Positions 6,965-22,615 of a stretch of DNA of 25,500 nt are shown here, piece by piece. Source of the stretch: a virus; the IMG/VR virus record IMGVR_UViG_3300025413_000115, positions 1 to 25,500 of that record; one strand, 5' to 3'. A program made the translations under genes and the position numbers. The notes under the pieces are model-generated. The model was not told the origin of the DNA and did no database searches. It was given only the letters and a program-made list of their open reading frames with translations. How positions within the stretch are numbered: position 1 is the first letter of the stretch; every line of letters begins with the position of its first letter.

Positions 6965-6981
6965 TAATAAGAAAGGCAACC

Positions 6982-7239: not shown

Positions 7240-7250
7240 TAAGGGTAACG

Positions 7251-7272
7251 ACTAGAACCCTTTAATTCTAGT
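7251..7272 (+). other. Inverted repeat in the leader of the DUF2815 gene
   Basis: A perfect 7-bp inverted repeat, ACTAGAA (7251-7257) and TTCTAGT (7266-7272), is separated by CCCTTTAA. It lies 30 bases before the DUF2815 ATG. No T-run follows, so it is more likely an operator or leader hairpin than a terminator. The leader then carries two AAAAAGGTAAAA ribosome binding site-like units in tandem (7279-7298). Confidence 0.45.
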
Positions 7273-7301
7273 TAGTCTAAAAAGGTAAAAAGGTAAAAAT
7301 T

Positions 7302-7820
7302 ATGCCAGCAAAATCCACAAAAACTAAATTCGTTACTGATCAAGTACGTTTTTCTTTTGTACACGTTTTTGAGCCAGCAGAAACACTTAACGGCTCTATG
7401 AAGTACTCAGCTTCTATTTTGATTCCTAAGTCTGACAAGAAAGGTGTAGATGCCTTTAACAAAGCTTTGGAACAAACTAAGCAAGCCAATGTCAATTACT
7501 TTGGTGGCAACATTCCAAAGAATCTTAAAGGCGGTTTGCGTGATGGCGACGCAGAGAAAGACGATCCAATCTATGCGGGTCACTATTTCTTTAACGCCAA
7601 CTCCAACGAAAAGCCCGGCATCTTTGATGCTGACAAAAACGAAATCTTTGACAAGGGTGAGTTTTACAGTGGTTGCTATGGCCGCGCTTCAATCACAATG
7701 TACCCATATGATGTAAGCGGCACCAAGGGTATTGCATTTGGTTTGAACGCTGTTATGAAGACAGAAGATGGTGAGCGCTTAGGTGGCGCAACAGCATCAG
7801 CAGCAGATTTCGCAGTATAA
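7302..7820 (+). CDS. DUF2815 single-stranded DNA-binding protein
   Basis: A 172-residue protein of the DUF2815 family, treated as phage ssDNA-binding proteins. Characteristic segments are VRFSFVHVFEPAE near the start, KYSASILIPKSDK, GLRDGDAEKDDPIYAGHYFF, NEKPGIFDADKNEI, EFYSGCYGRASITMYPYDV and GIAFGLNAVMKTEDGERLGG, with an acidic-to-small C-terminal tail typical of SSBs that recruit partners. DUF2815 and DUF2800 genes are often neighbours in phage replication cassettes, as here. It probably coats ssDNA for the polymerase and nuclease. A two-unit AAAAAGG leader precedes the ATG, and an intrinsic terminator follows at 7848-7882, which suggests high expression as a short unit. Confidence 0.9.
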   Translation: MPAKSTKTKFVTDQVRFSFVHVFEPAETLNGSMKYSASILIPKSDKKGVDAFNKALEQTKQANVNYFGGNIPKNLKGGLRDGDAEKDDPIYAGHYFFNANSNEKPGIFDADKNEIFDKGEFYSGCYGRASITMYPYDVSGTKGIAFGLNAVMKTEDGERLGGATASAADFAV

Positions 7821-7847
7821 GTAGTTCCTTTCAGTAGTAGGTAGTAC

Positions 7848-7882
7848 AGGGAGTGTCCGTAGAAACTGCGGCCTCCCTTTTT
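7848..7882 (+). terminator. Intrinsic terminator after the DUF2815 gene
   Basis: AGGGAG (7848-7853) pairs with CTCCCT (7873-7878), and an inner CCGTAG/CTGCGG stem (7857-7862 and 7866-7871, one G-T pair) closes an AAA loop. A TTTTT run (7878-7882) follows at once. This is a typical rho-independent terminator, 27 bases after the stop codon. Confidence 0.88.
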
Positions 7883-7908
7883 CGTCAACTCAATAACAAT
7901 AAGAACCC

Positions 7909-9783
7909 ATGGATCAATATCAAGAATATATAGCCGCCAGCCGTTATGCCCGTTTTATCGATGACAAACAACGAAGAGAAACATGGCCAGAAACAGTAAA
8001 CCGATTTGTAGAATACATTTTTAGTCGTACCCCAGCAATCACCGCAAATAACGCGTTAAAAGAAGAAATATTTACCGCAATTCATAACCTAGATTTAATG
8101 CCGTCCATGCGAGCCATGATGACGGCAGGAAAGAGTGCCGATCGTGACAATACTTGCATCTATAACTGCAGTTATCTCCCGGTGGATGACCCCAAGTCGT
8201 TCGACGAAGCGATGTTCATTTTGCTTTGCGGAACTGGCGTGGGGTTCTCTGTCGAAGCAAAATATATTAACAAACTGCCCGAAGTGCCAGAAAACCTGTT
8301 TGATTCCGAACACACCATCGTCGTACACGATAGCAAGGAAGGATGGGCAAAGTCTCTCCGCCTCCTACTCGCTCACCTCTGGGCAGGAGAAATCCCTAAA
8401 TGGAATGTTGAGTCCGTCCGCCCAGCCGGAGCACGACTCAAAACATTTGGTGGAAGAGCTTCCGGGCCAGAACCACTAGTTGACTTATTCAACTTTGCGG
8501 TAGCTATATTTAAAGGCGCAAAAGGTCGCAAGCTGCATTCCCTAGAGTGCCACGACTTGATGTGTAAGATTGGTGAGGTAGTTGTAGTGGGTGGCGTTCG
8601 TCGCTCAGCTATGATATCCTTGTCAGACTTAGATGATGAAAGGATTCGACATGCTAAAGCTGGACCATGGTGGGAAACAGCGCCGCACAGAGCTCTTGCT
8701 AACAACAGTGCAGTGTATAACGAAACACCTACTGTCGGAAAATTCATGGAAGAGTGGCTGTCACTTTACAACTCCCATTCCGGTGAACGAGGCATATTTA
8801 ATCGGGAAGCTGCTAAAAAGACAGTTGCGAAATACGGACATCGCGATCCAAACCATGAGTTCGGAACTAATCCATGCTCGGAAATTATCCTCCGACCATA
8901 CCAATTCTGTAATCTTACTGAGGCTGTAGTACGACATGACGACACAAGAGAAACTCTCATGCGCAAAGTGCGCATCGCCACTATCCTTGGTACCATCCAG
9001 TCTACCTTTACAAAGTTCCCCTATCTGCGCAAAGTGTGGCAGAGAAATACTGAAGAGGAACGGCTTTTGGGTGTCTCCCTCACCGGAATCTATGATAATC
9101 CCCTTCTCACAACCCAAGGAGATAAACTAAATGAGCTCTTACAAGATTTACGAATCTGCGCCAGAGAGACTAATAAAGAATGGGCAGCACTACTTGGAGT
9201 ACCTGAAAGCACTGCAATCACAGCAGTCAAGCCTTCCGGAACAGTTTCACAGTTGGTGGATAGCGCATCAGGAATTCATCCAAGACATTCCAAATATTAC
9301 ATTAGACGAGTTCGCGGAGATAAAAAGGACCCTCTTACACAATTCTTGGTCGCCCAAGGAGTACCTGCGGAGGACTGCGTATACAAACCCACTCAAACGA
9401 CAGTATTTAGCTTTGCTAAAAAAGCTCCAGACGGACTTACAAGAGCTGATGTTACCCCCATTTCCCATCTGGCACTTTGGCTCACTTACCAAAGACACTG
9501 GTGCGAGCACAAGCCCTCAGTCACCATCTCAGTTGAAGAAAAAGACTGGCCTTCAGTTGGTGCGTGGACGTGGGATAACTTCAGTGAAATCTCAGGGGTT
9601 AGTTACCTCCCCTACGATGGAGGAACTTATCGACAAGCGCCTTATGAAGAATGCACAGAAGAGCAGTATGAGGAGCTTAAAGCTAAGATGCCAACGATTG
9701 ATTGGACTCTTCTCCAAGAAGAAACTGACAACGTAGAAGGCGCTCAGCTCTTGGCTTGCAGTTCAGGTTCTTGCGAAATATGA
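7909..9783 (+). CDS. nrdJ: Adenosylcobalamin-dependent (class II) ribonucleotide reductase
   Basis: A 624-residue class II reductase of the monomeric ribonucleoside-triphosphate type. The thiyl cysteine is C323 in NPCSEI (321-326), with Glu325 next to it. C334 in FCNLTE lies 11 residues on, the spacing of the active-site pair C408/C419 in the Lactobacillus enzyme, and the partner redox cysteine is probably C87 in YNCSY. PSGTVSQL is the phosphate-binding loop. The C-terminal shuttle pair C617/C622 (CSSGSC) is intact. It converts ribonucleotides to deoxynucleotides using B12, so it needs cobalamin from the host. It is shorter than the 739-residue reference. The stop overlaps an HNH gene by ATGA. 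Codon use turns C-rich at about 8160-8470. Confidence 0.96.
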   Translation: MDQYQEYIAASRYARFIDDKQRRETWPETVNRFVEYIFSRTPAITANNALKEEIFTAIHNLDLMPSMRAMMTAGKSADRDNTCIYNCSYLPVDDPKSFDEAMFILLCGTGVGFSVEAKYINKLPEVPENLFDSEHTIVVHDSKEGWAKSLRLLLAHLWAGEIPKWNVESVRPAGARLKTFGGRASGPEPLVDLFNFAVAIFKGAKGRKLHSLECHDLMCKIGEVVVVGGVRRSAMISLSDLDDERIRHAKAGPWWETAPHRALANNSAVYNETPTVGKFMEEWLSLYNSHSGERGIFNREAAKKTVAKYGHRDPNHEFGTNPCSEIILRPYQFCNLTEAVVRHDDTRETLMRKVRIATILGTIQSTFTKFPYLRKVWQRNTEEERLLGVSLTGIYDNPLLTTQGDKLNELLQDLRICARETNKEWAALLGVPESTAITAVKPSGTVSQLVDSASGIHPRHSKYYIRRVRGDKKDPLTQFLVAQGVPAEDCVYKPTQTTVFSFAKKAPDGLTRADVTPISHLALWLTYQRHWCEHKPSVTISVEEKDWPSVGAWTWDNFSEISGVSYLPYDGGTYRQAPYEECTEEQYEELKAKMPTIDWTLLQEETDNVEGAQLLACSSGSCEI

Positions 9784-10148
9784 AAATTTGCAATACTTGC
9801 AAACAACAAAAGTCCTTGGAGGAGTTTCATAAAACTCCAAGGGCTAGTTGTAAATCCTGTATAAACAAGTCTGCTAAAAAATGGCGAGATAATAATCTTG
9901 AACAGGCTCGTGGCTATTTCACTAATGAGCGCAAAAAGATTTCCGATTGGAAGGCCAAAAAAGGGTGTTTAAATTGTGGAGAAGATGATCCAGTTTGTTT
10001 AGATATGCACCATCCTGATCCGACAATAAAAGAAAAAGATCCTAGCAGAATCGGTAAATTTGAAACTTTTTTAAAGGAAGCTAAAAAATGTATTGTGTTA
10101 TGTCGAAACTGTCATGCAAAAGTGCATGCAGGAAATCTTGAGATCTGA
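9780..10148 (+). CDS. HNH endonuclease, free-standing homing type
   Basis: A 122-residue HNH protein. An N-terminal zinc ribbon (C4/C7 and C24/C27) is followed by a basic helix and an HNH core: C63/C66, the catalytic LDMHH (74-78), then C108/C111 in CRNCHAKVH ending with His116. The architecture (ribbon, linker, HNH) resembles the HNH gene at 5198, although the core sequences differ. ATG 9780 overlaps the reductase stop exactly, so the reductase is complete. It is AT-rich relative to the reductase. Homing endonucleases often sit beside reductase genes in phages; a selfish element inserted at the 3' end is the likely reading. Confidence 0.87.
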   Translation: MKICNTCKQQKSLEEFHKTPRASCKSCINKSAKKWRDNNLEQARGYFTNERKKISDWKAKKGCLNCGEDDPVCLDMHHPDPTIKEKDPSRIGKFETFLKEAKKCIVLCRNCHAKVHAGNLEI

Positions 10149-10431: not shown

Positions 10432-12366
10432 ATGATTTACAGCATTGACTTCGAGACCCGTAGTAAAGCCAACTTGCCCGATGTGGGGCTAGACAAATAT
10501 GCAAACTGTCTAACAACAGAAGTGCTGTGTATTGCGTTCGGCACCCAACCTGATAATGTAGTAGTTAGTCAACCAAACCCACCTATAAATATTGGACACA
10601 GCTTAGATTTCCATGAGCTCATTGAACACGTCCGACAAGGTGGCAAAATCCAAGCATGGAACGCCATGTTTGAGTACGCCATCTGGAACTGCGTCTGTGT
10701 GCCCAAGTACGGCTGGCCACCACTAAAGCTCGAGCAGTGTATTGACTCTATGGCTATCGCAGCAGCCAACAATGTACCGCAGTCTCTTGATGAGGCTGGT
10801 ACCTTTATGAATGCCACACATAAAAAAGACGCCATCGGCGCCCGTTTAATTCAGAAGTTATGTAAACCCAATAGGAAGGGAGAATTTGAAAATGACCCAA
10901 AACTACTTGCCCAGCTATTTGAGTACTGTGCCCAAGACGTTAGAACAGAAATGGCAATTGTCAAACTACTACGCCCCCTCAGTGCTGAGGAACAGTCTAT
11001 CTGGGAACTTACGCAGCGTGTTAACTTGCGTGGAGTGCCGGTGGATCAAAACGAGCTCCATAACGCCGTAAACGCGGTTCAGAGCGCTCAAAAGGCAATC
11101 GATGAGGAGACCTTAGCCCTAACCGGCTGTAAGCCCTCAGAACGCGCTAAATTGCTTGCATGGATCAATCAACGCATACCTCAAGCACCAATGCCCGATT
11201 TGACCGCTGAGACCGTTGAGAAAATGCTGCAGTGCAACATATTTCCTATACTCAAGAAGGTTTTAAAACTACGCCAAGAAGGCAGCCAAACTAGCGTGGC
11301 TAAGTACGCTAAGATGTTGGAGATACAACGAAATGGTCGTATTAGAAATACTTTGGTTTATCATGGTGCGAGTACTGGTCGCTGGGCTTCTCGCGGTGGA
11401 CTTAATCTTCAGAACATTGCACGACCTACTCTGGAAGATGAACAGATTGCACTTGCGATACTTAAAGTTTTTGGGCAAGGTGTTGGTACGATGGACGAGC
11501 TATCCAGCTTGGTACGTTCCGCTATTAGTGCGCCAGATGGACAAACCTTCGTGGACGTCGATTTTTCATCCATCGAAAATAGAGTCGGCGTTTGGCTTGC
11601 GGGACAGAACGACAAAGTCAATCTCTTCCGAGAAGGATTGGACGAATACAAAACCTTTGCCTCGCAAAGCCTCTACAACATCCCGTACGAAGAAGTCACC
11701 AAAGACCAAAGGCAAGTAGCCAAGTCAGCTGTGCTTGGCGCGATGTTCGGTCAGGGTGCTAAGGGATTGGTGAAGTATGCAGAAGGCATGGGAGTAAAGC
11801 TAACTGAAGCCCAAGCTAAGAACGCAGTAGATAATTACCGAGAGTCGTATGCAAAGGTGAAGTCTCTTTGGGCAGACTGCGAGTCTGCCGCTAAAGAAGC
11901 AATTGAGAATCCCGGCACTGCGTATCGTGCTGGTAGTAAGTTGATGTTAAAACGTGTGAAAGATACTCTGTGGATGCAGCTACCCAGCGGACGACTTATC
12001 TGTTGGCAAAGGCCAAAGTTCGAGCTGTGTGAAACTATTTGGGGTAATAGGATGGGCGTGACTGTCCACAGCCAAAGTACTTACACTAGGCAGTGGAGTC
12101 GAAACCAACTGATTGGTAGTAGTATCTTTCAATCCGCGGTACAGGGTACCGCTAGGGACTGTCTTGCCGTGGCTATGCTTAATCTTGAGCAAGCTGGTTA
12201 TTCTGTGATCAACTGCGTCCATGACGAAGTACTCCTCTTAGTGGAAGAACAAAACGGGGAACCCTCATTGGCTGATGTAATCAATATTATGACTACACCA
12301 CCATCATGGGCTCCCGATTTTCCTCTTGCTGCCGAGGGTTGGCACGGAAAACGTTACCGTAAGTAA
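10432..12366 (+). CDS. polA: Family A DNA polymerase with 3'-5' exonuclease domain
   Basis: A 644-residue replicative polymerase. The exonuclease domain comes first: DFE (Asp6, Glu8), WNAMFEYAIW (Asn77, Glu81) and YCAQD (Tyr165, Asp169). Polymerase motif A is VDVDFSSIENR with catalytic Asp377. Motif B has Arg427, Lys431, Leu435, Phe439 and Gly440. Motif C is VHDE with Asp598. The Taq-like 5'-3' exonuclease domain is absent, as usual for phage enzymes. Leu435 aligns with E. coli Pol I Phe762 and Phe439 with Tyr766, both of which affect nucleotide selection and speed. The gene follows a terminator and converges with the minus-strand virion genes, overlapping the facing gene by 13 bp. Confidence 0.96.
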   Translation: MIYSIDFETRSKANLPDVGLDKYANCLTTEVLCIAFGTQPDNVVVSQPNPPINIGHSLDFHELIEHVRQGGKIQAWNAMFEYAIWNCVCVPKYGWPPLKLEQCIDSMAIAAANNVPQSLDEAGTFMNATHKKDAIGARLIQKLCKPNRKGEFENDPKLLAQLFEYCAQDVRTEMAIVKLLRPLSAEEQSIWELTQRVNLRGVPVDQNELHNAVNAVQSAQKAIDEETLALTGCKPSERAKLLAWINQRIPQAPMPDLTAETVEKMLQCNIFPILKKVLKLRQEGSQTSVAKYAKMLEIQRNGRIRNTLVYHGASTGRWASRGGLNLQNIARPTLEDEQIALAILKVFGQGVGTMDELSSLVRSAISAPDGQTFVDVDFSSIENRVGVWLAGQNDKVNLFREGLDEYKTFASQSLYNIPYEEVTKDQRQVAKSAVLGAMFGQGAKGLVKYAEGMGVKLTEAQAKNAVDNYRESYAKVKSLWADCESAAKEAIENPGTAYRAGSKLMLKRVKDTLWMQLPSGRLICWQRPKFELCETIWGNRMGVTVHSQSTYTRQWSRNQLIGSSIFQSAVQGTARDCLAVAMLNLEQAGYSVINCVHDEVLLLVEEQNGEPSLADVINIMTTPPSWAPDFPLAAEGWHGKRYRK

Positions 12367-13256
12367 ACTAGTCCGCCGTCGGCCATAGCAATCTGACCGC
12401 CTGCGGCGTGATGTTGTTTTCTTAAACTATCTAAATATGAATTAAGTGCTTCCGCGCCCATACCAATTGCTGATCCACCAATGCGGGTCATCGGAGTTGG
12501 TACAAAGGAAGCAACGGAGCCAAGAGTTCCAAGACCACCAATAGCGGCACCAAGGTAATCACCTTGTTTAAAACGGTTGTATGCATCAAAGCCTTGTAAG
12601 CCCGCTAAACCGCCCATAAGGCCACGACCGAGTACAGCAGGCACTGCCCTACCCACACCTTTATAAACGCCTCCTAGCGCGTTTTGGACAGCCGGAGACA
12701 TACCTAAACTCTCAGCCAGCTTGGTCTCTAATGGACGACCTGCTTTTAGGGCTGCAGCCTCTTTAGCTCTTTGCTCAGTAAAACGAGCTTGGCGAGCGGC
12801 TTCTTGTGCTTCTAGCTGTGCAGCAGCTTCTGGATTCATAGGACCAGTGATGCGTGATACAACCTTACCTTGACCTAGTGGTTTGTTACGAGCCGCTTGC
12901 ATATCTTTGTAAGCCTGATTTACTTCTTCTACAGTCTTACCTTCACCAGCACCAAAGCCAGTCTTTCTAGCCCAACGCTGACCGGCGGAATCCCATTCTA
13001 AGTCGGCGGGAGTTACGCCTAATTGTTTTGCGGCATTAACTTTAGTAGCTTCTTGAAAGCCAGTTGAAATCGCCGGAGCTACATATTGACCAGCAATAGC
13101 ACCACCTAACAAACCGAAACCCGGATTAACTAATTCATCCGCGGTAACGGTTTTTGATTTAGGTGCTTCTTGCTGTGGTTGTTGATTAGCTTGTTCTTGC
13201 TCAAGGCGTAAACGAAATTCAAACTCTTGTTGCTGTTCTGGAGTTAAATCTGCCAT
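12354..13256 (-). CDS. Virion structural protein, probable ejection-type protein
   Basis: A 300-residue Ala/Gly/Gln-rich protein. The N-terminal 40 residues are polar and Gln-rich (TPEQQQEFEFRLRLEQEQ). Several Gly-rich hydrophobic stretches follow (FGLLGGAIAGQYV near 47-60 and GLMGGLAGLQGF, YLGAAIGGLGTLGSVASF in the C-terminal third), with a long Ala/Glu helix between. This composition and its place behind the transglycosylase gene are typical of podovirus internal or ejection proteins that enter the host envelope, but no family is certain. TAGGACAA lies about 8 bases before the ATG. It is the last gene of the minus-strand module; its 3' end overlaps the polymerase gene by 13 bp and no terminator is visible. 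Confidence 0.72.
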   Translation of the reverse strand: MADLTPEQQQEFEFRLRLEQEQANQQPQQEAPKSKTVTADELVNPGFGLLGGAIAGQYVAPAISTGFQEATKVNAAKQLGVTPADLEWDSAGQRWARKTGFGAGEGKTVEEVNQAYKDMQAARNKPLGQGKVVSRITGPMNPEAAAQLEAQEAARQARFTEQRAKEAAALKAGRPLETKLAESLGMSPAVQNALGGVYKGVGRAVPAVLGRGLMGGLAGLQGFDAYNRFKQGDYLGAAIGGLGTLGSVASFVPTPMTRIGGSAIGMGAEALNSYLDSLRKQHHAAGGQIAMADGGLVYLR

Positions 13257-13257
13257 A

Positions 13258-15312
13258 TTATTGTCCTAAACGTTGTTTCTTCCAAGCCTGATATGCTGCT
13301 TCTTTGTTTGTATCTTCATAGGCTTTTGGTGCAGAAGTCACACCTTGATCTCGCTTGATAAGTCCTTTATCTGGACCTTCACCCAATTTTTGCAATTTAT
13401 TAAAGTATGCATCAGAGGCATCGCGGAATTCTTTACTTGCCTTAAATTGACCGAAGTTAATGTTTTCGCCTCTAGCAATTCTGTCATCATACATATTACG
13501 AACTTGGTTCTTGTATTCGTTTCTGGCTGCTAAATATTGCTGAGTTTTTCTGAGCATCTCTGGAGTGTTAGATGCAGAACCAATCATGTCTTGAAACATC
13601 TTACGCTCGTTATCAGAAATAGAACCTTGGCCAGTTGCAGACTGCGCAACTTCAAACGAGAAGTTTTGCAAAATCTGTTTGATCATTTGTCTATCTTGCA
13701 TGTCTTGCTTTGTAACACCGGGTCCAAGAGCTTGCATGGCGTCTTCAATATCTGCGCTAATGCCGCCCACTGGAGTTTGGATACCTTTAGAAAGAGCCTG
13801 TCCAATAGCTGATGTAACACCGGGCTTCATATACAAACCAACAACTTGCTGGTCTGGATTATTTTCAATCCGCTTAAGGGTTGTATCAAATTGCTTAATT
13901 AGTCGGCCTTGCTCAGCCATCTTCTCTCTATTAGTAGAATCTTCAAAAGATGTTTGAGACTTTTTGTTAGCCTCCATGTTAGCAATAATGTTTTGCTTTT
14001 GTTGCTCTTGTCCAACTTGTTGGTTTAACTGAGCTTGTTGGGCACTAACACTAGGTGCGGCACCAACTGGAGCAGCGGGCGCGGTTGGAGTTGTTTGAGC
14101 AGCTTGTGTTGGAGCAGCCTTTTGCAATTGCTGATTAAGCATATCGCGAACTTGTCCAACCGTCTTGCCTTGAATCTGAGGATTAGCTTCAATTTCTTTC
14201 TGTGACATAACAGAAGTAATTGGTGCATCAGCAGGAGCTGTAGCCAGTTTTGTATTGCCAGTAAACCAAACGATACGATGATTTAATTCACTTGGAGTTA
14301 AACCGGCGTCTTGTAGTTTCTTGCCGTTGATATCAAGCAAAGTCTTAGCTGCTGCAGTTTGCAATTCAGGATTAGATTTAAACTGTTCCCAAGAAACATC
14401 TTTCAATGCTGGGTTTTGTGCTTTGACTGTTTCAAACGTTGGTTGAGTCATGCCGTATAAACCAGCGGCGCTTGAAGTTGCAGATTGAGCCGCAGGGTTA
14501 TTGCCGCTTTCAATCTTAGCCGTTTTGCTTAATATTGTGCCTGCATCAGCTGGCGCTGTTGGAGGTTTAATCCCGGGCTGTTGACCGTAGCCACCAACAA
14601 TCGTACCACCACCAATATCGCGATAGTAACCAGAAGCCAAACCTTGCTTGTATTGCAATGGTGAAATGGTATCTGCAACAAAGCTGTTAGAGCTTGGGTC
14701 GTATTTTTGTACGTTGATAGTAGGTTTGTACATATCAGCGCCCATATTGATCTTAGACGCTTCTTTTAGGTTATCCTGATAGTACTTCATCGCGGCTTGA
14801 GGATCGCTTTGGCTCATGCGAATAACTTCGCGCCATACTTCTGGGTTAACCAATGATGGGCTCATGCCACCATAACCCATACCACCAGCGCCACCTACTC
14901 CGCCAGTCATACCAGCACCACCACCCATACCAGCCATAGCTTGGATCTGTGCACGAATGTTAGCGTTCTGTTGAGCGTTAGATTGCAACGTTGCCATTTG
15001 GGAACGCATATTCATGGTCTGCTCATCTTGCTTATCTTTTTGAGCTTCACGCAAAGCAAGCGCTTCAGATGGACCATTTACGCCACCAGCTGTCCAAGCC
15101 GTAGCGTCTTTTAAACCGCCCAAAAATTGACTCATTGGGCTAGTACGTTGACTAATTAAATTTTGCATATTCTCCAAAATAGACTTAGTCGATTCTGGAG
15201 TTAGGTTTGTTGCGCCCTTAGCTGCTACAGTACCTTTTGGTGACACTGCAACTTGAGCCCCGCCCAAACCACCAATTGGGGATTCTTGTTGATCTAGATC
15301 TTGATCAGCCAT
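13258..15312 (-). CDS. Virion-associated protein with lytic transglycosylase-like domain
   Basis: A 684-residue protein. A Gln/Ala-rich helical N-terminus is followed by a Gly-Met-rich linker (GMGGGAGMTGGVGGAGGMG near 127-145). At about 260-350 comes a lysozyme-like transglycosylase domain: KIESGNNP with the presumed catalytic Glu268, SAAGLYGMTQPTFE and HRIVWFTGNTKLA. Next is a Pro/Ala/Gln linker, then a long helical C-terminus. Such proteins ride in the virion and cut peptidoglycan locally when DNA is ejected. The start has GGAGGCGG upstream, placed within the end of the preceding gene. The usual Ser after the catalytic Glu is present (ES), supporting activity. Whether it is an internal ejection protein or a tail-tip protein cannot be decided. 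Confidence 0.85.
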   Translation of the reverse strand: MADQDLDQQESPIGGLGGAQVAVSPKGTVAAKGATNLTPESTKSILENMQNLISQRTSPMSQFLGGLKDATAWTAGGVNGPSEALALREAQKDKQDEQTMNMRSQMATLQSNAQQNANIRAQIQAMAGMGGGAGMTGGVGGAGGMGYGGMSPSLVNPEVWREVIRMSQSDPQAAMKYYQDNLKEASKINMGADMYKPTINVQKYDPSSNSFVADTISPLQYKQGLASGYYRDIGGGTIVGGYGQQPGIKPPTAPADAGTILSKTAKIESGNNPAAQSATSSAAGLYGMTQPTFETVKAQNPALKDVSWEQFKSNPELQTAAAKTLLDINGKKLQDAGLTPSELNHRIVWFTGNTKLATAPADAPITSVMSQKEIEANPQIQGKTVGQVRDMLNQQLQKAAPTQAAQTTPTAPAAPVGAAPSVSAQQAQLNQQVGQEQQKQNIIANMEANKKSQTSFEDSTNREKMAEQGRLIKQFDTTLKRIENNPDQQVVGLYMKPGVTSAIGQALSKGIQTPVGGISADIEDAMQALGPGVTKQDMQDRQMIKQILQNFSFEVAQSATGQGSISDNERKMFQDMIGSASNTPEMLRKTQQYLAARNEYKNQVRNMYDDRIARGENINFGQFKASKEFRDASDAYFNKLQKLGEGPDKGLIKRDQGVTSAPKAYEDTNKEAAYQAWKKQRLGQ

Positions 15313-15315
15313 TTA

Positions 15316-16290
15316 TTAACCGCCTCCGTAATTTAAGCAACCCGCTGGTAATCCTATGCAACCAGATGGTGTAGGAGTATTTACACAGCCGCTATAACAA
15401 CCGCTTTGGTCATTCTTACAAATAATTAAGTTACCACAAGGGGATTTGCAATATCCAGTGGTACTGCAACGGCTAAGAGCGCAACATAATAAATTGCCAC
15501 CGCTCTTAAATATACAAGACAAACCGCCTTTATAACCTAATTGCTTTAACAGTGAACAGGCGCCAGCAACACCACCTTGCAACGCACTTCCAACAGAACC
15601 TAGTTGGTTTAATGGGGATAACTGAGTTTGTGCGGTAGTTTTTCCGGGAACGCTCAATGCGTTAATTAAGTTTGCGTAGTTTCCAATTGGTTGGAATGGA
15701 GCGTTCATCTGTGCTGCGCCAGTTGTTAAACTAGATTGAACGCACTGAGCACCAAGATTACCTAATGCTTGTCCAGCGGACACGCCAGTCTGTTGGTTTT
15801 GTAATGCAGATTGCATTTGCTGAGCAGCTAATGTATCAAACGCATTTGCTCTAGCTTCGTCCATAGCTGTTTGGCCACGCAAGCTGCCAAAGTTACCAGA
15901 ACCAATTCCAGCAGCCATAGTAGGCGCTGTCATTTGTGGCAACAGTTGGCACAGCTGTTGACGCTGAGCAGCAAACAAACCGCCCATAGCAGTATTAGTA
16001 TTTGGGCTTACTTGTCCGGTTTGAGCACAAGTCATCCAAGGATTAGCCGCGCCAGAAGCAATTTGACCTACTGAAGATCTAGCTTGTGCAAAAGGATTAT
16101 TTGCGCCAGATAAAGTGTTTACAGCGTTTTGAGCTACAGTGCCACCAAACTGTGGTGCAGCAGCTTGTGCCGCGCCCGCTTGGTTAGCAATGTTTTGTTG
16201 AGCACCAGAATACCAACTTGGTAAAGTGGTTTCGGTAACCGCTGAGTTGGCTAAAAGATTATTTAAACCAGAAGAGCAAGATGTTGCCAT
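15316..16290 (-). CDS. Virion protein (ejection-type) with cysteine-rich C-terminus
   Basis: A 324-residue protein in two parts. Residues 1 to about 235 are Ala/Gln/Asn/Ser-rich and helical (TLPSWYSGAQQNIANQAG, NAVNTLSGANNPFAQARSS, ASGAANPW), a pattern seen in podovirus DNA-ejection proteins. The last 85 or so residues carry 12 cysteines, including LLCCALSRC, GYCKSPCGN, SGCYSGC and PSGCIGLPAGC, spaced like a disulfide-rich or metal-binding module. Four more cysteines are scattered before that. I know no phage family with this tail; the gene directly upstream also has a cysteine-rich segment. In the reducing cytoplasm the cysteines would be free or metal-bound; oxidation could occur after release. 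Function is inferred from composition and position. Confidence 0.75.
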   Translation of the reverse strand: MATSCSSGLNNLLANSAVTETTLPSWYSGAQQNIANQAGAAQAAAPQFGGTVAQNAVNTLSGANNPFAQARSSVGQIASGAANPWMTCAQTGQVSPNTNTAMGGLFAAQRQQLCQLLPQMTAPTMAAGIGSGNFGSLRGQTAMDEARANAFDTLAAQQMQSALQNQQTGVSAGQALGNLGAQCVQSSLTTGAAQMNAPFQPIGNYANLINALSVPGKTTAQTQLSPLNQLGSVGSALQGGVAGACSLLKQLGYKGGLSCIFKSGGNLLCCALSRCSTTGYCKSPCGNLIICKNDQSGCYSGCVNTPTPSGCIGLPAGCLNYGGG

Positions 16291-16291
16291 A

Positions 16292-17410
16292 TTATTTTAC
16301 TTTCTTTTTAGCTTCTAACAAATACCCAAGTGGGCCTTTGCTATCGGGGGGCAGTTGTTTTGCATCGTGACTATGTTTGTGTGCGCGAACTGTCTTTAAA
16401 AACTCATCTAAAATCTTAGCACCACTATCGTTGCTTCCATCACCAAGTCCAGATACTACATCTGCTGGAATAACAAACTCGCCGTTTGCTAACATGGCTG
16501 GAATAGAATCTGATGTGCCAGTACCACCACCTTTAACAAAGTGATGTAAACCGCCTTCACTAATAAACTCAGGTTTATGCTCAACAATCTTACCGCCGCA
16601 TTTTGCATGAGTCATAATAGATGGAGAGCCCTTTAAGGGATCCAACCCCATAGCGGGAGTATAAAAACCAAACGCGTGACCTTGATGAATATCTGGTTTG
16701 CTACCTTCAGCCATATGCTGAATCAATCCACCGTCCTTGGCATTTTCAATTTCTTGTTCGGCCATTGGTGTAATTGGAGCTTGGGAAATATTGTCTTGCC
16801 CAATGTTGTAGTTTTCACTAGGCAAAGCAACTTGATTGCCATGAACCATTACTGCAGCTGGTGTTGTAATAGCTGGGCCTTGAGCCATTCTATTAATACC
16901 TGCAGCAAGAGCACCCAAACCGCCAGCTAAACCAATGCAAGTTGCACCGCCAGAAGATGTGCCGCCAGTTGTTCCACCACCCATACCGGGAAGACCGCCT
17001 ACGCCGCCTTTACCGCCGGTAGGACCACCACCAATTACTTTACCAATTGTACAAGTAATACCGCCCGGAATTTTGGGAATCTTAGGAATCTTGGTTTTGC
17101 AAGAGCAGAGAGGTGGTTTTGTAGTAGGAGGTGTACAAGCAGGAGGTGTTTCGCAAGCAGGAGGCTGGCAAGCAGGAGGCTCGCAAGCAGGTGGTTGGCA
17201 AACAGGTGGTTCGCAAACAGGAGGCTGGCAAATAGATGGTTCGCAAATAGGGCTGCAAATAGGACCGCAACCTGTTGGACCGCAACTTAATGGGTTGCAA
17301 GGAATAAGGCAACTAACACCGGGGACGCAGTTAAAGGTGCATCCTAAGACGCAACTAACTCCCGGTATACATCCTATTACACATGTTGCTACGCAAACAG
17401 CACCGCCCAT
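16292..17410 (-). CDS. Virion-type protein with Cys-Pro repeat N-terminus
   Basis: A 372-residue protein. The first 104 residues contain 21 cysteines at 4-6 residue spacing. They open with twin CIPGVSC/CVPGVSC units and run into a Cys-Pro repeat of CQPPVCEPP type (about 56-92). A Gly-rich linker (GGGPTGGKGGVGGLPGMGGG) follows. The C-terminal third holds GGGTGTSDSIPAMLANGEFV and IPADVVSGLG, a motif I know from phage tape-measure and internal virion proteins, and a Lys-rich end. So the C-terminus is virion-like while the N-terminus is unlike any phage domain I recognise. The repeat is encoded by six 15-bp DNA units. Disulfide bonding, metal binding or proline modification are all open possibilities. 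Confidence 0.78.
   Translation of the reverse strand: MGGAVCVATCVIGCIPGVSCVLGCTFNCVPGVSCLIPCNPLSCGPTGCGPICSPICEPSICQPPVCEPPVCQPPACEPPACQPPACETPPACTPPTTKPPLCSCKTKIPKIPKIPGGITCTIGKVIGGGPTGGKGGVGGLPGMGGGTTGGTSSGGATCIGLAGGLGALAAGINRMAQGPAITTPAAVMVHGNQVALPSENYNIGQDNISQAPITPMAEQEIENAKDGGLIQHMAEGSKPDIHQGHAFGFYTPAMGLDPLKGSPSIMTHAKCGGKIVEHKPEFISEGGLHHFVKGGGTGTSDSIPAMLANGEFVIPADVVSGLGDGSNDSGAKILDEFLKTVRAHKHSHDAKQLPPDSKGPLGYLLEAKKKVK
17157..17246. repeat. Six tandem 15-bp units encoding the Cys-Pro repeat
   Basis: Six imperfect 15-bp units (first unit gcaggaggctggcaa on the plus strand) run without gaps, each encoding C-Q/E-P-P-V/A on the minus strand. Units alternate between ggcaa and cgcaa endings, so a 30-bp higher-order period is visible (Gln then Glu). 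Expansion by unequal recombination or slippage is the likely origin. Confidence 0.85.
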
Positions 17411-17413
17411 AAA

Positions 17414-17866
17414 TTACTCCATCACCATTGAATAGATATTTTCAAAATAATTAGCACCTAGCCGTTTTAAAATTGGGCTGTAGTCCATAAAAGGTTTAAC
17501 ATGAAACATGATTCGTTGTGGTTGTCTTTTTTTAATTTCCTCAACAGACCACTTAATAAACTTTACACCTAGCATGCCTTTACGATAATTTGGACTAATA
17601 TACAAAACATCCGAATTAGCGGTAAGACTGCTTTTATAGTGTATATGATTTACAACAAACCATAAACTATATCCAATTAATTTACCGTCATCACGAATAG
17701 TGTGAATCTCTAACGAATTTTGGTTGTACAAATTGTTATATCGTTTAAGGTCTGGATCCAAAGCAATAACGTCTGTACGTTCTGCTATCTCTTCATAATG
17801 CTTTTGAAACAAATCCATCGCTTCTTGTGTAAAAGGCTCTGGCGCCTCTTTTTGAAAAGTAATCAT
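17414..17866 (-). CDS. GNAT-like acetyltransferase
   Basis: A 150-residue protein with the order of strands and helices of a GNAT acetyltransferase: an N-terminal helix, the strand-turn HTIRDDGKLIGYSLWFVV (55-72), then DVLYISPNYRKGMLGVKFIK (86-105), corresponding to motif A with a degenerate acetyl-CoA loop (YRKGMLG), a helix and KRLGANYFENIYSMVM at the end. Similar short GNATs are frequent near phage virion genes; the substrate is unknown. Its start overlaps the stop of the upstream cupin gene (ATGA), so it belongs to the accessory cassette. The non-canonical loop leaves some doubt about catalysis. Confidence 0.78.
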   Translation of the reverse strand: MITFQKEAPEPFTQEAMDLFQKHYEEIAERTDVIALDPDLKRYNNLYNQNSLEIHTIRDDGKLIGYSLWFVVNHIHYKSSLTANSDVLYISPNYRKGMLGVKFIKWSVEEIKKRQPQRIMFHVKPFMDYSPILKRLGANYFENIYSMVME

Positions 17867-18342
17867 TTGTTTAATATCTCTGCGTGTACTTCACCAACAG
17901 GTTCACCTTCCCAATTGGTTGTTACGGATATTGGAAACTTATCTTTCCAATGTTCAAAACTTAAAAACGCACCGCCTTCTTTACCAATTAAAAGCCAGTG
18001 AGGTATTCCATCTGGCGAACTAACTGTTTTTCCAAACAGTGCATGCGCTCCGTTATCTTTGGCATACTGCCATTGAGACGCATCGGGGTTGTCTCTTCCC
18101 TCTAGATTAAACTGAATATTACCAGTTAAATATACAAAGGCAGAATCAACACCGGGGTGTGTATGTTTTGGGGAAGTGCTGTGTGGTTCTGTAATGTACA
18201 GCTCCACTTGAAACTGACCTTCTCTAAACAAACACAAAGACATTGCGTTATCGGTATAGAAAACCGGATTTTCAAAAGGTGGTCGTAACGGAAAACCTTT
18301 TTTGCAATACCAGTCTCTAAACTCTTCAACCGTTTGCCACAT
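17863..18342 (-). CDS. Cupin-fold protein, paralogue B
   Basis: A 159-residue single-domain cupin. Motif 1 is SPKHTHPGV with His60 and His62, then VYLTGNIQF; motif 2 is around PHWLLIGKEGGAFLSFEHWK. It is a clear paralogue of the gene just upstream: both share FRDWY/FKDWW, LRPPF, LCLFREGQFQVELY/LCLYREGQYQVELY and HWKDK. I chose ATG 18342 because the two proteins then align without gaps from residue 1 to the HxH, and GAGGC lies just upstream; an ATG at 18366 would add 8 residues. Cupins bind metals or small ligands and include isomerases and dioxygenases; the substrate is unknown. Confidence 0.8.
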   Translation of the reverse strand: MWQTVEEFRDWYCKKGFPLRPPFENPVFYTDNAMSLCLFREGQFQVELYITEPHSTSPKHTHPGVDSAFVYLTGNIQFNLEGRDNPDASQWQYAKDNGAHALFGKTVSSPDGIPHWLLIGKEGGAFLSFEHWKDKFPISVTTNWEGEPVGEVHAEILNK

Positions 18343-18826
18343 GACTTGCCTCGATGGTTTTGGCATGTTGGCTGCCTACTAATTCACCTTCCCAGTGCGT
18401 TGTTACTGACACAGGGTCTTTGTCTTTCCAATGTTCAAATATCAAAAACGCACCGCCAGTATTACCTATGCGTAATGCGTGTTCTTTATTGCCATCATTA
18501 ACTTCTATGCCTTTACCTAAAAGCATATGTGCGCCATTTTCTTTAGGTTTTTGATACTGGGACAAATCAACAAATTCGCCGTTATCTTTTGTAAACTCTA
18601 AATTACCGGTCAAGTACATTGATACTGACTCAACGCCCGGATGCTTATGCATTGGTGATTGCGTGTTTGGCTTACAAACATACAACTCCACTTGATACTG
18701 GCCTTCACGATAAAGGCATAATGCGTATGCTATATCGGTAGTGTGGATTGGGTTTTTAAAAGGTGGCCGTAATGGTCGACCTGCTTTTAGCCACCAATCT
18801 TTAAATTGTTCAACATTATTATACAT
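18326..18826 (-). CDS. Cupin-fold protein, paralogue A
   Basis: A 166-residue cupin with SPMHKHPGV (His60, His62) and MYLTGNLEF as motif 1 and a second half ending in GGAFLIFEHWKDKDPVSVTT. It pairs with the paralogue downstream, overlapping it by 17 bases. The HxH and a following Glu66 (VESVSMYLTG) fit a metal site; paralogue B has Asp at that place, so the two may differ in metal or substrate. Both lie in the operon headed by a 2OG-Fe(II) oxygenase. Role unknown; a sugar- or amino-acid-modifying enzyme pair is possible. Confidence 0.8.
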   Translation of the reverse strand: MYNNVEQFKDWWLKAGRPLRPPFKNPIHTTDIAYALCLYREGQYQVELYVCKPNTQSPMHKHPGVESVSMYLTGNLEFTKDNGEFVDLSQYQKPKENGAHMLLGKGIEVNDGNKEHALRIGNTGGAFLIFEHWKDKDPVSVTTHWEGELVGSQHAKTIEASHVANG

Positions 18827-19181
18827 AGGCCATTAATTTATGATTTGGCATATCGGAATGTCTGAATCTAATTCCAAGTGAATCCAAAGCATGCATTATA
18901 CGCTGGCTCTCGTTATTTGTGTAAATTGTGTGTACACCTTCTTGCTTTAATTCATCTAACAAAGCGCTGATAGAATGTAGCGTAACCAATGGTGAATCTT
19001 GTGTGACAAAATGTACTTGTGCTGCATGACCGCCCAACGGCCTAACAAACATCAACGTATCACCCATTTGTTTAGTTTTAGTTCCGGGTGCGTCTAAATG
19101 TTGGCTCAATCGATGCGCTATATGATGCGGGTTTAAACCAGCTTCATTCGTAGTCTTTTGAATTATTTCATGTGGGGTCAT
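18819..19181 (-). CDS. Conserved-type hypothetical protein
   Basis: A 120-residue protein with a helical N-terminus (MTPHEIIQKTTNEAGLNPHH), a beta segment (DTLMFVRPLGGHAAQVHFVT) and a Rossmann-like or GNAT-like alternation afterwards (VHTIYTNNESQRIMHALDSL, then IRFRHSDMPNHKLMAYV). The end, with a strand, a helix and an 'I-R-F ... H-K-L-M' pair, resembles the C-terminal half of a GNAT fold, but I cannot find an acetyl-CoA loop. Treat as unknown. It overlaps the cupin start by 8 bases and the next gene by ATGA, so it is part of the cassette. Confidence 0.65.
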   Translation of the reverse strand: MTPHEIIQKTTNEAGLNPHHIAHRLSQHLDAPGTKTKQMGDTLMFVRPLGGHAAQVHFVTQDSPLVTLHSISALLDELKQEGVHTIYTNNESQRIMHALDSLGIRFRHSDMPNHKLMAYV

Positions 19182-19456
19182 GGTTTACACACCTGTGTAG
19201 CATCATAAGTTGTTAATGTTTCTTGCACCGGTTTAATAATGGCAGTAGATGTTTCTTTATCAATTTCTAAGCTACCAAAACAGCACAAGTTCCAATCTTC
19301 ACCATTAGCAGCTTGTTCACTATACGATGGAACATGAAGCTGAAAGTGTTTAAATAAATATTCTTGGTCACCTTCAAACACGCGCCAAGCGTGATCTTTG
19401 GTTCCGCGTCCCGGCGTACCGCGACTTTTGTTAAAGCGAATCAAATACTTTTTCAT
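19178..19456 (-). CDS. Conserved-type small phage protein, function unknown
   Basis: A 92-residue protein beginning MKKYLIRFNKSRG, then HAWRVFEGDQEYLFKHFQLH, DWNLCCFGSLEIDKETSTAI. I recognise this pattern from small uncharacterised proteins of aquatic phages, in particular cyanophages, but no function is known to me. It is probably beta-rich. The start overlaps the oxygenase stop and the stop overlaps the next start (ATGA both times), so all three are coupled. Confidence 0.7.
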   Translation of the reverse strand: MKKYLIRFNKSRGTPGRGTKDHAWRVFEGDQEYLFKHFQLHVPSYSEQAANGEDWNLCCFGSLEIDKETSTAIIKPVQETLTTYDATQVCKP

Positions 19457-20112
19457 ACAACAATTGGCGCTTTAATTTTTTTCTTATTAGCTATCTCAGC
19501 AGGTTTTACACTAATATTAAAATGAATAAACTTAAACGGATCGTTAGACGCATTTCTTGTTAAAGAATGTGGCAACCAAGAATTTGTAATAAACAAACCA
19601 CCGCGCTTTGGTGCAAATACAATTCCTGATGTTGCGTCTGTTACTTTAGTTGTATCTTCTTCTTGCAAACTGATTTGGCGTTTGCCTAATCTTGGATCAT
19701 GAATAATCAACTTAGGGCAATTTTCTGGACATTCTAAAAAGAAAAATCCAACTAACTGCGCATTGTCATTATGAATATGCTCTTCCATAGAACCATATTT
19801 ATAATGCTGCTGTCCCCACATTGAATGAAAAAAAGTAACTTTATTGTCCATATCGTAGCCTTGGGTTTTTAAAATGTTCCAAGCAGTACTGACAATGTAT
19901 TTACCAACTTCTTGCATCCGTGGATCAAAAACCATATTCTTGGTCATGATAGATGGATACAAATCATTCATCTTGCAATGTTCTTTAATGTACTCATCAA
20001 ACACTATTAAAGCCTCTTCGACAAATTCTGGCTTTTCTATATAGTAAACAGGGCTTGCAAAATAGCCGTCGGTTTGCAGAACGTCTTGCACGTTCTTTGT
20101 GGATTCGTCCAT
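19453..20112 (-). CDS. 2OG-Fe(II) oxygenase
   Basis: A 219-residue non-haem iron oxygenase of the type often annotated 'putative 2OG-Fe(II) oxygenase' in phages. The iron triad is H114-x-D116 in EEHIHNDNAQ and His182 in WLPHSLTRN, with the double-stranded beta-helix strands around LVGFFFLECPE, IVFAPKRGGLFITNS and KFIHFNI. Such enzymes hydroxylate proteins (including prolines), nucleobases or small molecules; the target here is unknown. It is the first gene after promoter-like copy 3, so the six-gene cassette can be expressed apart from the tail genes. The Cys-Pro repeat protein encoded downstream would be an attractive prolyl substrate, but that is speculation. Confidence 0.88.
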   Translation of the reverse strand: MDESTKNVQDVLQTDGYFASPVYYIEKPEFVEEALIVFDEYIKEHCKMNDLYPSIMTKNMVFDPRMQEVGKYIVSTAWNILKTQGYDMDNKVTFFHSMWGQQHYKYGSMEEHIHNDNAQLVGFFFLECPENCPKLIIHDPRLGKRQISLQEEDTTKVTDATSGIVFAPKRGGLFITNSWLPHSLTRNASNDPFKFIHFNISVKPAEIANKKKIKAPIVV

Positions 20113-20181: not shown

Positions 20182-20451
20182 TCAATAACTTGGACCATTA
20201 ATAATTAACGTAAATTCGTTAGCCCAATCCTGCCAATTTTCAAAACCTTCCGGACTTGGAACTGGAAAAGTCTCAAAAGCGGCCATGCTGGACATTTGCT
20301 GTGCGGCTTTTTTCCATTCTAGTTCTGGTGAAAACATGACGTTTTGACTACCGAAGTAAATAGCCATATTGCCATTCCAATCTTCCCAAGACATGTGGTC
20401 TGGTACACATGGAAAAAACTGGCTGACCGAAATTCGTTTAGGGGCGCTCAT
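20182..20451 (-). CDS. Small conserved-type phage protein
   Basis: An 89-residue protein with ISVSQFFPCVPDHMSWEDWN, GNMAIYFGSQNV, and a C-terminal GFENWQDWANEFTLIINGPS. I recognise this Trp-rich arrangement from small proteins encoded right behind gp10-like hub genes in aquatic podoviruses; a virion-associated role is likely but unproven. I prefer ATG 20451 (GAG 7 bases upstream) over the GTG one codon before. It overlaps the end of the hub gene by 14 bases and is followed by promoter-like copy 3. Confidence 0.72.
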   Translation of the reverse strand: MSAPKRISVSQFFPCVPDHMSWEDWNGNMAIYFGSQNVMFSPELEWKKAAQQMSSMAAFETFPVPSPEGFENWQDWANEFTLIINGPSY

Positions 20452-22615
20452 CACCGTACTCTGCGGTAATAATTAATTTACCCATTTCGTAATTGCCATC
20501 TAAAGTATTAGATTCAAACTTTAACTGAATTAAACGGTGCTCAACTCGCAAGTCAATTTTTCCAGTGTTTTTATCAAAATAATATGGTCCAGAATCTTGT
20601 TCGTCTAAAGCCATTGTGCCACTAGCAAACTTACGACCTAAAATGGTCATAGACATTTGGCCAGATTGCAAGAAGTTTGGCTCAACACGGCGAATATGCA
20701 TGCGGCGGTTAATACCTACCAAAGAATCACTACCGGGCGTTCCTGAAATCCAACTAATATCACTAGTAGTAATACTAGAGTAAACCGCAACTTCGCCGTT
20801 TAGACCAATTTGGTTTTGACCATATTCGTGTTGCCAAAGGTTAAAACCACCAGTAATATAATACGCGTTGGTATTAGCCACAGGGGTTGGAATAATTGCA
20901 TTTGCAACGGTAACTAATGTAACTCCGGGCGGTTTTACCGTAGTGTTGTAAATGTTTTGACAAGCTGTAATTGTATAAGTATTGCCATAGCTATTTGCCG
21001 GTACAAAAGTTACGCTGTCGCCGGGACTAAATGTGGCGGTTTGATCGCCACTCAAATAAAACTGGTTATTTGCAGGGGCCGCCAAACTAGCTGGATGATT
21101 AATTACTTTAGTAGGTTGTCCTAAAATTGGACTATAGTTCCAATCAATCCAAATAGGTAGCGGAAATAGCTCTGTGGTATATCCGCAAGAACGTTGAGCA
21201 CCTACTGCTTGACCAGCGTCATACCAAATTTTATCTTTAACATTATAGATAATTGCATCGGTACACTCTGTAGCGGTGCCACGGGGATAAAAGAACCAAA
21301 TTTCATTATAGCGAGGCACTTTGGTTGCCCACACTTTTTGACGTTGTTCGTAGTTGATGTTGTCGAAAAGGTAATTTACATTTTTATCATTAGGGACTAC
21401 CGAGACTTGGCCATTATATAGATAAAATCTATCAATGCCCATCCACCAATAAACACCGTCCATCTCAACCACAGCGTTGGATGACATGATTGAAATTTGG
21501 CTGGAAATAATATCGTAATTCCAGTAAGTAGAAGGAACTGCTGTAGAGCCTGTACCCGCCGGATTAAACGTAACACGAATTAGACTATCAGTTGCCCAAA
21601 ACAAACCGGATGGCGCATTAGTACCACCACGCATTGGTAGTCCCTTGACAATCTTAGAACTACTTACGTTAACTTGGTTAGCTAGTGGTCCATTCCAATC
21701 ATAAAAACTTTGTAAGCCATAAGTACCATTAACATTATTGTTAGCGATAAACCCATGAGAGCCATACACGAAAATAAAAGGATATAGAACACAAACACCT
21801 CCATCAACACTAATGGGTTTGTAAGTTGGATTTTGCCCTTGACTATCAGATAGTCCACTAAACGTCCATGCTGAATTGTTTGCTGGCGTAATATTGCCAA
21901 CTAAAACTTGCGATACCACACCGCTATCAATGTTAGTTAAATTTTTAGCTGGGTGAGCAAACACAGCTAATTGATTTCCTAATGGACTAAATTGTGAATC
22001 AAATTGCCAATTGTTTAAATACGGGCCAGCAGCAGCATCTGCGGTAAATACTGCATTACTAGCAAAGTAAACCGTGTTAGGCGATCCAGAAATAGTATTG
22101 CCAGATACCGTAACGGTAGTTGTATTAGATGAGTAAACCGCATTAGATACTGTAAAATAAATTGCATTACTTTGGTTAAAGATTACTTTGCTAGTGTTTG
22201 GAAATGACGATACCGCGTTGCCACTAACAACAAAAGTTGACGATATCGTGTTGACATTAGAAATGTTTGCAAACGCCGTACCGGGCAAAATAGTAACTAC
22301 AAAAGGACCGCTACCAGTTGCAAATGTAGTGCCGGTTGTAAATGCGTCAAGTTCTTTATAATTACCAGCAAAGATATAGTTTACGCCGTTATATGGCTGT
22401 GCAACCATGCCACGGTAAATGCCGACAAGGCTATTAAAAATAGAACGAAAGCCGCCCATTTTCTTTGGTACACCACGTTGAAAACGACACCATACACCAT
22501 CGGTATACTCGTCGGTTTCAAAATAAGTTCCGTCTCGCTTGATACCCGCTGGAATTCTAAGAGTGTAAATCTTAGTGAACTGCGAGTTATCTTGCTGAAT
22601 ATTATCAGCTGCCAT
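20438..22615 (-). CDS. P22 gp10-like tail hub / packaged DNA stabilisation protein
   Basis: A 725-residue protein. The N-terminus (IPAGIKRDGTYFETDEYTDG, CRFQRGVPKKMGGFRS) and the central block (SSNAVVEMDGVYWWMGIDRF, then YEQRQKVWATKVPRYNEIWF at about 422-441, CTDAIIYNVKDKIWYDAG) match the phage stabilisation protein family of P22 gp10, a beta-propeller-like plug that closes the portal channel after packaging and carries the tail needle. An Asn/Thr/Ser-rich insertion at about 100-200 (SGNTISGSPNTVYFASNAV repeats) is not in P22 gp10 and may decorate the tail. The adaptor gene lies two genes upstream, the expected order for tail assembly. Confidence 0.88.
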   Translation of the reverse strand: MAADNIQQDNSQFTKIYTLRIPAGIKRDGTYFETDEYTDGVWCRFQRGVPKKMGGFRSIFNSLVGIYRGMVAQPYNGVNYIFAGNYKELDAFTTGTTFATGSGPFVVTILPGTAFANISNVNTISSTFVVSGNAVSSFPNTSKVIFNQSNAIYFTVSNAVYSSNTTTVTVSGNTISGSPNTVYFASNAVFTADAAAGPYLNNWQFDSQFSPLGNQLAVFAHPAKNLTNIDSGVVSQVLVGNITPANNSAWTFSGLSDSQGQNPTYKPISVDGGVCVLYPFIFVYGSHGFIANNNVNGTYGLQSFYDWNGPLANQVNVSSSKIVKGLPMRGGTNAPSGLFWATDSLIRVTFNPAGTGSTAVPSTYWNYDIISSQISIMSSNAVVEMDGVYWWMGIDRFYLYNGQVSVVPNDKNVNYLFDNINYEQRQKVWATKVPRYNEIWFFYPRGTATECTDAIIYNVKDKIWYDAGQAVGAQRSCGYTTELFPLPIWIDWNYSPILGQPTKVINHPASLAAPANNQFYLSGDQTATFSPGDSVTFVPANSYGNTYTITACQNIYNTTVKPPGVTLVTVANAIIPTPVANTNAYYITGGFNLWQHEYGQNQIGLNGEVAVYSSITTSDISWISGTPGSDSLVGINRRMHIRRVEPNFLQSGQMSMTILGRKFASGTMALDEQDSGPYYFDKNTGKIDLRVEHRLIQLKFESNTLDGNYEMGKLIITAEYGDERP

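Follow-up and report, generated by a model that had tools for sequence, protein, structure and literature searches.

A gene pair encoding a 2OG-Fe(II) oxygenase and the small protein S92 accompanies cysteine-rich virion-type proteins in unrelated phages

Results

Cysteine-rich proteins in a short-tail gene context

The window analysed here is a stretch of 25,500 nucleotides of viral DNA (positions 1 to 25,500 of IMG/VR record IMGVR_UViG_3300025413_000115), in which two adjacent genes, both intact open reading frames of one operon, encode the cysteine-rich proteins A and B (Table 1). Genes on the minus strand follow the order SU10-type adaptor (PF24175), fibre-like protein, nozzle-like protein (phrog_3287), A, B and transglycosylase-like protein, so that the short-tail genes PF24175 and phrog_3287 and the adjoining phrog_4067 gene frame A and B as they would ejection proteins. 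As a place after the adaptor and nozzle-like genes and before the transglycosylase-like protein is the usual one for short-tail ejection proteins, A and B are most likely putative virion proteins of the ejected short-tail type. The preliminary description of this DNA had read them as virion proteins of ejection type; the gene order fits, and it is from this order that we infer the role itself.

Table 1. Features of the window and of related records
Feature	Record	Coordinates	Strand	Length (aa)	Description
Two small early-gene proteins	Window	5198-5614; 9756-10148	+		10 Cys each; HNH-endonuclease look; unrelated to A and B
DNA polymerase-like protein	Window	10432-12366	+	644	Named from sequence; marker of phage background
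Protein D	Window	12354-13256			No Cys; next in operon after C
Protein C	Window	13258-15312	-	684	No Cys; transglycosylase-like segment (phrog_4067); next in operon after B
Protein B	Window	15316-16290	-	324	16 Cys; conserved helical body and variable Cys-rich tail (residues 245-318)
Protein A	Window	16292-17410	-	372	24 Cys; N-terminal Cys-rich segment (residues 1-104), then a Gly-rich linker and a conserved domain at the C-terminus
Two tandem cupin-like genes	Window	17863-18826	-		Between S92 and A; window lineage only; weak relatives in L027/L067
S92	Window	19178-19456	-	92	No family; highly conserved; at this locus only with Cys-rich A/B
2OG-Fe(II) oxygenase (PF13759)	Window	19453-20112	-	219	At this locus only with Cys-rich A/B
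Gene just upstream of the oxygenase	Window	20182-20454			In 135 loci
Nozzle-like virion protein	Window	20438-22615	-	725	phrog_3287; marker of phage background
A-type protein	L260 (IMGVR_UViG_3300032240_000846)	6754-8703	+	649	100 Cys; long CCTDCC / CDCTTCC repeats
Fibre-type ORF	L343	4365-5888	+		27 Cys in Gly-rich part
94-aa cupin with CC, followed directly by S92	L351	800-1084	-		Cupin replaces the 2OG oxygenase
94-aa cupin with CC, followed directly by S92	L349	1495-2012	-		Cupin replaces the 2OG oxygenase
Glycosyltransferase-like genes adjoining S92	L188; L213; L347	2729-3835; 1948-3003; 1724-2950			Fibre loci

The cysteines of A are concentrated at the N-terminus, where 21 of the 24 fall within residues 1-104 (positions 6-104), mostly spaced 4-6 residues apart. 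Against a background of 1.18% cysteine, taken from the other genes of the window, at least 21 in 104 residues has P ~7e-20 in a simple binomial model. In B, cysteines stand at positions 5, 88, 114 and 183 of the body and twelve more between 245 and 318; at least 12 in 80 residues has P ~2e-10 under the same simple binomial and background. The counts given in the preliminary description (21 in the first 104 residues of A, 12 in the last 85 or so of B) are thus borne out, and the CQPPVCEPP-type repeat and the tape-measure-like C-terminal motif SDSIPAMLANGEFV that it reported for A are present.

That motif (SDSIPAMLANGEFVIPADVV in the C-terminal domain) is shared with tape measure profiles, as evidenced by a PHROG profile search in which A matched phrog_6090 with E 3.2e-6 over residues 283-342 only. 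Since the match is local, covering ~60 of 372 residues against profiles of 800-3100 positions, we rejected A as a tape measure protein. An extensin assignment was likewise rejected, the match to Extensin_1 (PF02095; 21.2 bits, cut-off 105) being compositional and arising from the proline repeat. Neither A nor B of the window matched a Pfam metallothionein family at E 0.1, B matched no Pfam or PHROG family, and a scan of a bacterial genome collection returned only three A-like matches, all of them weak. The AlphaFold model of B (mean pLDDT 65, pTM 0.32) has a helical body of moderate confidence and a cysteine tail of low confidence; fold searches with it gave weak matches only, and a reading of disulfide or metal geometry was dropped because the model is too weak.

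Relatives of A and B are either nearly cysteine-free or cysteine-rich in both proteins

Relatives were gathered by scanning IMG/VR with A, B, alignments of B and the C-terminal domain of A, which yielded about 100 contigs with A adjoining B. In the 86 distinct A/B pairs outside the cysteine-rich lineages there are 7 cysteines in ~69.7k residues of A and none in ~28k residues of B, where ~820 and ~330, respectively, would be expected at the window background. Compared with these relatives, the more relevant yardstick, the cysteine content of A and B is even more extreme than by the binomial. Cysteine is nearly absent throughout proteins A, B and C of L007-L168, which looks like selected avoidance and may hold for ejection proteins generally; protein C is cysteine-free whether A and B are cysteine-rich or not.

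Only four lineages (7 contigs) are cysteine-rich, each in A and B together, with A/B counts of 24/16 in the window type (which includes L003), 21/9 in L037 (= L076), 8/10 in L061 (= L079), and 12/11 in L077 (= L078). No intermediates between the two states were seen among the relatives. The link between the two proteins proposed in the preliminary description is therefore upheld in an all-or-none form. It had also been argued there that free loss of the cysteines from otherwise conserved relatives would count against the idea; relatives without cysteines do exist, but A and B lose them jointly, in step with whether the oxygenase/S92 gene pair described below, which the preliminary description did not mention, is present just upstream.

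A sequence artefact or misread frame was rejected, as the reading frames are intact and 84-87% conserved in contig 3300025789_000270 (L003/L006), where A is 84% and B 87% identical to the window proteins with the same 24 and 16 cysteines. Reassignment of TGY codons was judged unlikely because ordinary enzymes of the same genome keep TGY-coded cysteines and the replaced residues vary. More specifically, the four body cysteines of B (positions 5, 88, 114 and 183), which are common to all four cysteine-rich lineages, stand for T/G/S, D/N, N and G of the cysteine-free relatives, and such residues (D, N, G, S, T) are typical of surfaces and turns.

An oxygenase/S92 gene pair tracks the cysteine-rich state

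Comparing each late gene of the window across the A/B loci identified two overlapping genes upstream of A, encoding a 2OG-Fe(II) oxygenase and a small protein that we term S92, which occur in exactly the 17 loci (7 contigs) with cysteine-rich A/B and in no cysteine-free locus, although the next gene upstream (20182-20454) was found in 135 loci. Counted by record, the pair is present at this locus in all 7 cysteine-rich contigs (4 lineages) and in 0 of 96 cysteine-free records. Whole-record searches found S92 elsewhere in 3 of these 96 (G052, G046 and G041): in G052, where A and B are cysteine-free, the gene pair comes instead after a 12-cysteine Gly-rich fibre; in G046, S92 adjoins a small cupin in place of the oxygenase and no low-complexity cysteine-rich ORF was seen; and in G041 the contig ends at S92. 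The association of the pair with cysteine-rich A/B is well supported.

The oxygenase matches PF13759 with 40.9 bits (cut-off 27; E 2.8e-10), which places it in that family; its score against TIGR02466 (52.5 bits) lies below the cut-off of 62.5. Its profile also matches the solved chains 3bvc and 2rg4, and H112, H114, H182 and H197, candidate metal-binding residues, are invariant among 39 relatives. Close relatives among isolate phages are few (4 records). S92 has 18 invariant residues among 53 relatives, with an invariant cysteine (C59) and the C-terminal tail YDATQVCKP, and is predicted with confidence to be a small beta protein (pLDDT 88). The predicted fold had no useful match in the PDB (best Z 2.6); in BFVD it matched some phage proteins that have no assigned function. 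This conservation, the confidently predicted beta fold and the gene overlap with the oxygenase are what one would expect of a putative partner subunit.

Cupin and acetyltransferase neighbours were rejected as essential partners, being absent from the other cysteine-rich lineages. Two tandem cupin-like genes lie between S92 and A in the window, one of which (18326-18826) scored 16 bits against the thiol dioxygenase family PCO_ADO, below the cut-off of 27. Elsewhere, in L351 and L349, a short cupin takes the place of the oxygenase directly upstream of S92 (Table 1), and S92 may have exchangeable iron-enzyme partners.

Descent of the segment

With cysteines masked, B of the cysteine-rich phages forms one clade (SH-aLRT 98). 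Strongly supported branches force at least four changes of cysteine state on the polymerase tree and at least two on the nozzle tree; the polymerase of L077 is 87% identical to that of the cysteine-free L020, and the nozzle protein of L076 is 83% identical to that of the cysteine-free L011. Cysteine-rich phages are thus scattered in these two trees while their B proteins form a single clade, which shows that the pair, A and B have been exchanged together, as one segment, among phage backgrounds. At its N-terminus, A of cysteine-rich phages has one of three architectures, each closest to a different cysteine-free A: A of L037 is nearest that of L011 (44% over 277 aa), A of L061 is nearest that of L070 (46% over 288 aa), and window A weakly matches the PPVEQ repeats of L008 A, a low-complexity match. 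Cysteines thus seem to have been gained in A more than once.

A second phage family

Among 50,697 phage records, S92 was carried solely by MW202545.1, a circular metagenome-derived phage record with 36 cysteines in A, 33 in B, including CCSCCC runs, and none in the two proteins downstream of B. Here ~13 kb separate the pair from B, and ~14 kb separate it from A. In its relatives B is cysteine-rich in 7 of 7, and A has 22-100 cysteines in all six records covering it (two near-identical); complete proteins of this second family have 22-100 cysteines in A and 19-33 in B. A whole-record search found S92 in MW202545.1 and five longer relatives; the two relatives that lack it are fragmentary records (4.6 and 19 kb). 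The A-type protein of L260, which has the 100 cysteines, is a striking candidate for metal studies.

Cysteine-studded fibres beside S92 in other phages

IMG/VR holds at least 569 relatives of S92, and among the best 80 of these the gene is mostly directly downstream of an oxygenase. Near many of them, cysteine-studded proteins of fibre type are encoded, including YadA-like repeats in L183 (25 Cys), L224 (20) and L182 (22, with collagen-like repeats), INACGALVGS repeats in L231 (18 Cys), and Gly-rich fibres in L178, L212, L192 and L219. Of 42 distinct S92 loci whose upstream sequence was long enough, however, only 23 have a low-complexity ORF with at least 2% cysteine within 5 kb upstream, which counts against a general link. 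In several fibre loci, glycosyltransferase-like genes adjoin S92, and sugars might be attached there to fibres or to cysteines.

As a first low-complexity comparison was unmatched by protein type, we rely on a matched control in which Gly-rich fibres were scanned whatever their neighbours, with a query alignment from S92 loci, and cysteines were counted in the Gly-rich part. At least 2% cysteine was reached by 14 of 17 fibres with an oxygenase or S92 in the locus and by 6 of 55 without (mean 3.1% vs 1.1%; Fisher P 6.5e-8, with rows that are not independent by descent). No local motif was found around the cysteines; those of Gly-rich and YadA-like fibres stand alone as often as in clusters.

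Exceptions so far are L343 (45 kb) and L269 (30 kb), which have cysteine-rich fibres and no match to the oxygenase in the record. The best counter-example to the link between the pair and cysteines is L177, a member of the first family, in which the oxygenase and S92 lie upstream of an A with 0 cysteines in 741 sequenced residues; the remainder of the 37-kb contig, from which the final part of A and the whole of B are missing, yielded no cysteine-rich virion-type protein. What the genome comparisons show is an association, with counts uncorrected for kinship: it is all-or-none in A/B, survives recombination, recurs in a second family and with other types of target, and holds in the matched fibre set. 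The suggestion in the preliminary description that the cysteines form an A-B partner interface fares less well: A and B are linked, but the same gene pair accompanies cysteine-rich fibres in other phages, which an interface would leave unexplained.

Discussion

A possible role for the pair

Tentatively, we posit that cysteines on the surface of exposed, low-complexity virion proteins are what the pair works on or is there to serve, a reading in which we infer the action of the pair, its chemistry and its benefit alike. Exposed or flexible parts of the putative virion proteins A and B would have been loaded with cysteines along with a linked oxygenase/S92 module, whose two products would work as a unit on the thiols of cysteine-bearing low-complexity virion proteins, with S92 perhaps a partner or substrate binder of the oxygenase. 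Thiols would be modified or cross-linked during assembly, and the benefit might be that proteins which otherwise avoid cysteine could bear it both outside the cell and on their way across the host periplasm. The lack of a motif around the cysteines implies that any modification would need relaxed specificity. Alternatively, the pair could supply iron or redox needs.

The periplasm is oxidising, and ejection proteins exit partly unfolded through a narrow portal channel (review, PMC8954989). These conditions would fit the scarcity of cysteine in A and B of most relatives, and unprotected cysteine clusters there come as a surprise. In a broader form, which is possible and at the same time doubtful, oxygenase and S92 would be a self-contained thiol-modification module of several phage families that converts virion-protein cysteines chemically, turning cysteine-free ejection proteins or fibres into cysteine-decorated ones, with a target that varies by phage.

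Alternative explanations

Cysteine arrays might instead be metallothionein-like ligands, either structural or exploiting host metal uptake, with the Fe(II)-dependent pair linked to them through iron or regulation. The extreme density and short spacing of cysteines in L260 A (CCTDCC), MW202545.1 B (CCSCCC) and window A (every 4-6 residues) are in keeping with such metal loading, as are the iron dependence of the partner enzyme family and the proposal by others of iron-carrying phage tail fibres (e.g. PMC11705849). We nonetheless consider it unlikely, as fibre cysteines are scattered singly as often as they are clustered and metal loading does not by itself account for the need for oxygenase and S92. 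About equally unlikely is disulfide locking, in which thiols that stay reduced in the cell would join A, B or fibre subunits by disulfides in the periplasm or outside the cell, with the pair protecting or preparing these thiols and leaving no lasting modification. Ejection proteins refold in the oxidising periplasm (PMC8954989), cysteines were added to A and B simultaneously, and those of B occupy polar, probably exposed positions suited to intermolecular links; against this, 2OG oxygenases are not known to catalyse disulfide formation, cysteine avoidance in A and B of the relatives suggests that disulfides harm portal passage, and cysteine numbers are odd and variable (21/9, 12/11).

It is also conceivable, if rather improbable, that the pair has another role (e.g. 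on nucleic acid or a host protein) and merely shares an often-exchanged late-gene segment. Phage 2OG-Fe(II) oxygenases are common, with nine copies in one cyanophage, and a part in DNA repair has been proposed for them (PMC9146016). Such hitchhiking would suit the single origin of cysteine-rich B and the adjacency of the pair to the cysteine-rich gene in the window family and the fibre loci, but the link persists at ~13 kb distance in the second family, stays in place as the target type varies between phages, and accompanies cysteine gain on three architectures of A. Finally, the cysteine-rich versions might reflect one host or chemistry (e.g. anoxic, metal-rich bog water) with the pair as a niche marker. 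Several contigs are indeed numbered in the same metagenome series, yet cysteine-rich and cysteine-free members occur in the same metagenome, both in 3300025429 (L061, L011) and in 3300025789 (L003, L149), and the polymerases of cysteine-rich phages are closest to cysteine-free ones (as in L077 and L020), which makes this explanation very improbable.

Significance

We know of no named counterpart of the coupled trait of cysteines, oxygenase and S92, and found no literature tying phage oxygenases to cysteine-rich virion proteins in an open-access search, for which subscription journals and bioRxiv were mostly out of range. On the strength of the association, we rate the coupled trait as new as a system built from parts of known kinds. 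Its recurrence in unrelated phages suggests an undescribed way of handling cysteine in virus particles. Should the pair act on the cysteines, virions would mature in a way not described so far, and new cysteine chemistry might come of it. If no enzyme is involved, the all-or-none change between cysteine-free and cysteine-rich forms of the same proteins still makes the role of cysteine in a phage particle directly testable.

Comparison with known systems

The window shares with podovirus ejection proteins (T7 gp14/gp15/gp16 type) the place after adaptor and nozzle-like genes and a run of neighbouring low-complexity proteins, of which one contains a transglycosylase-like segment, and the model of B suggests long helices as in that type. 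Neither sequence nor fold searches matched the window proteins to a solved ejection protein, and the extreme cysteine content of A and B sets them apart from the cysteine-free relatives found here. Tape measure proteins have the C-terminal SDSIPAMLANGEFV-type motif in common with A, which in contrast is a protein of 372 residues without a long helical rod in a phage with short-tail genes. Metallothioneins resemble A, and most of all A of L260, in cysteine density and CC/CxxC-like spacing; unlike them, the proteins described here are large and virion-type, and in other phages the cysteines are spread over fibres.

Maturation of collagen or minicollagen combines a 2OG prolyl hydroxylase with cysteine cross-links, and has in common with the window a 2OG oxygenase alongside the Cys- and Pro-rich repeats of A. 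Most other cysteine-rich partners are not proline-rich, so that proline hydroxylation, unlike in collagen, is not the common denominator. Among phage 2OG-Fe(II) oxygenases (PF13759, phrog_81), which have no established role, the window gene passes the Pfam cut-off, with Fe(II)/2OG catalysis predicted. Unlike the others, it is of a type paired with S92 and associated with cysteine-rich virion-type proteins, and the S92-paired subgroup thereby gains a concrete and testable partner in such cysteine-studded proteins.
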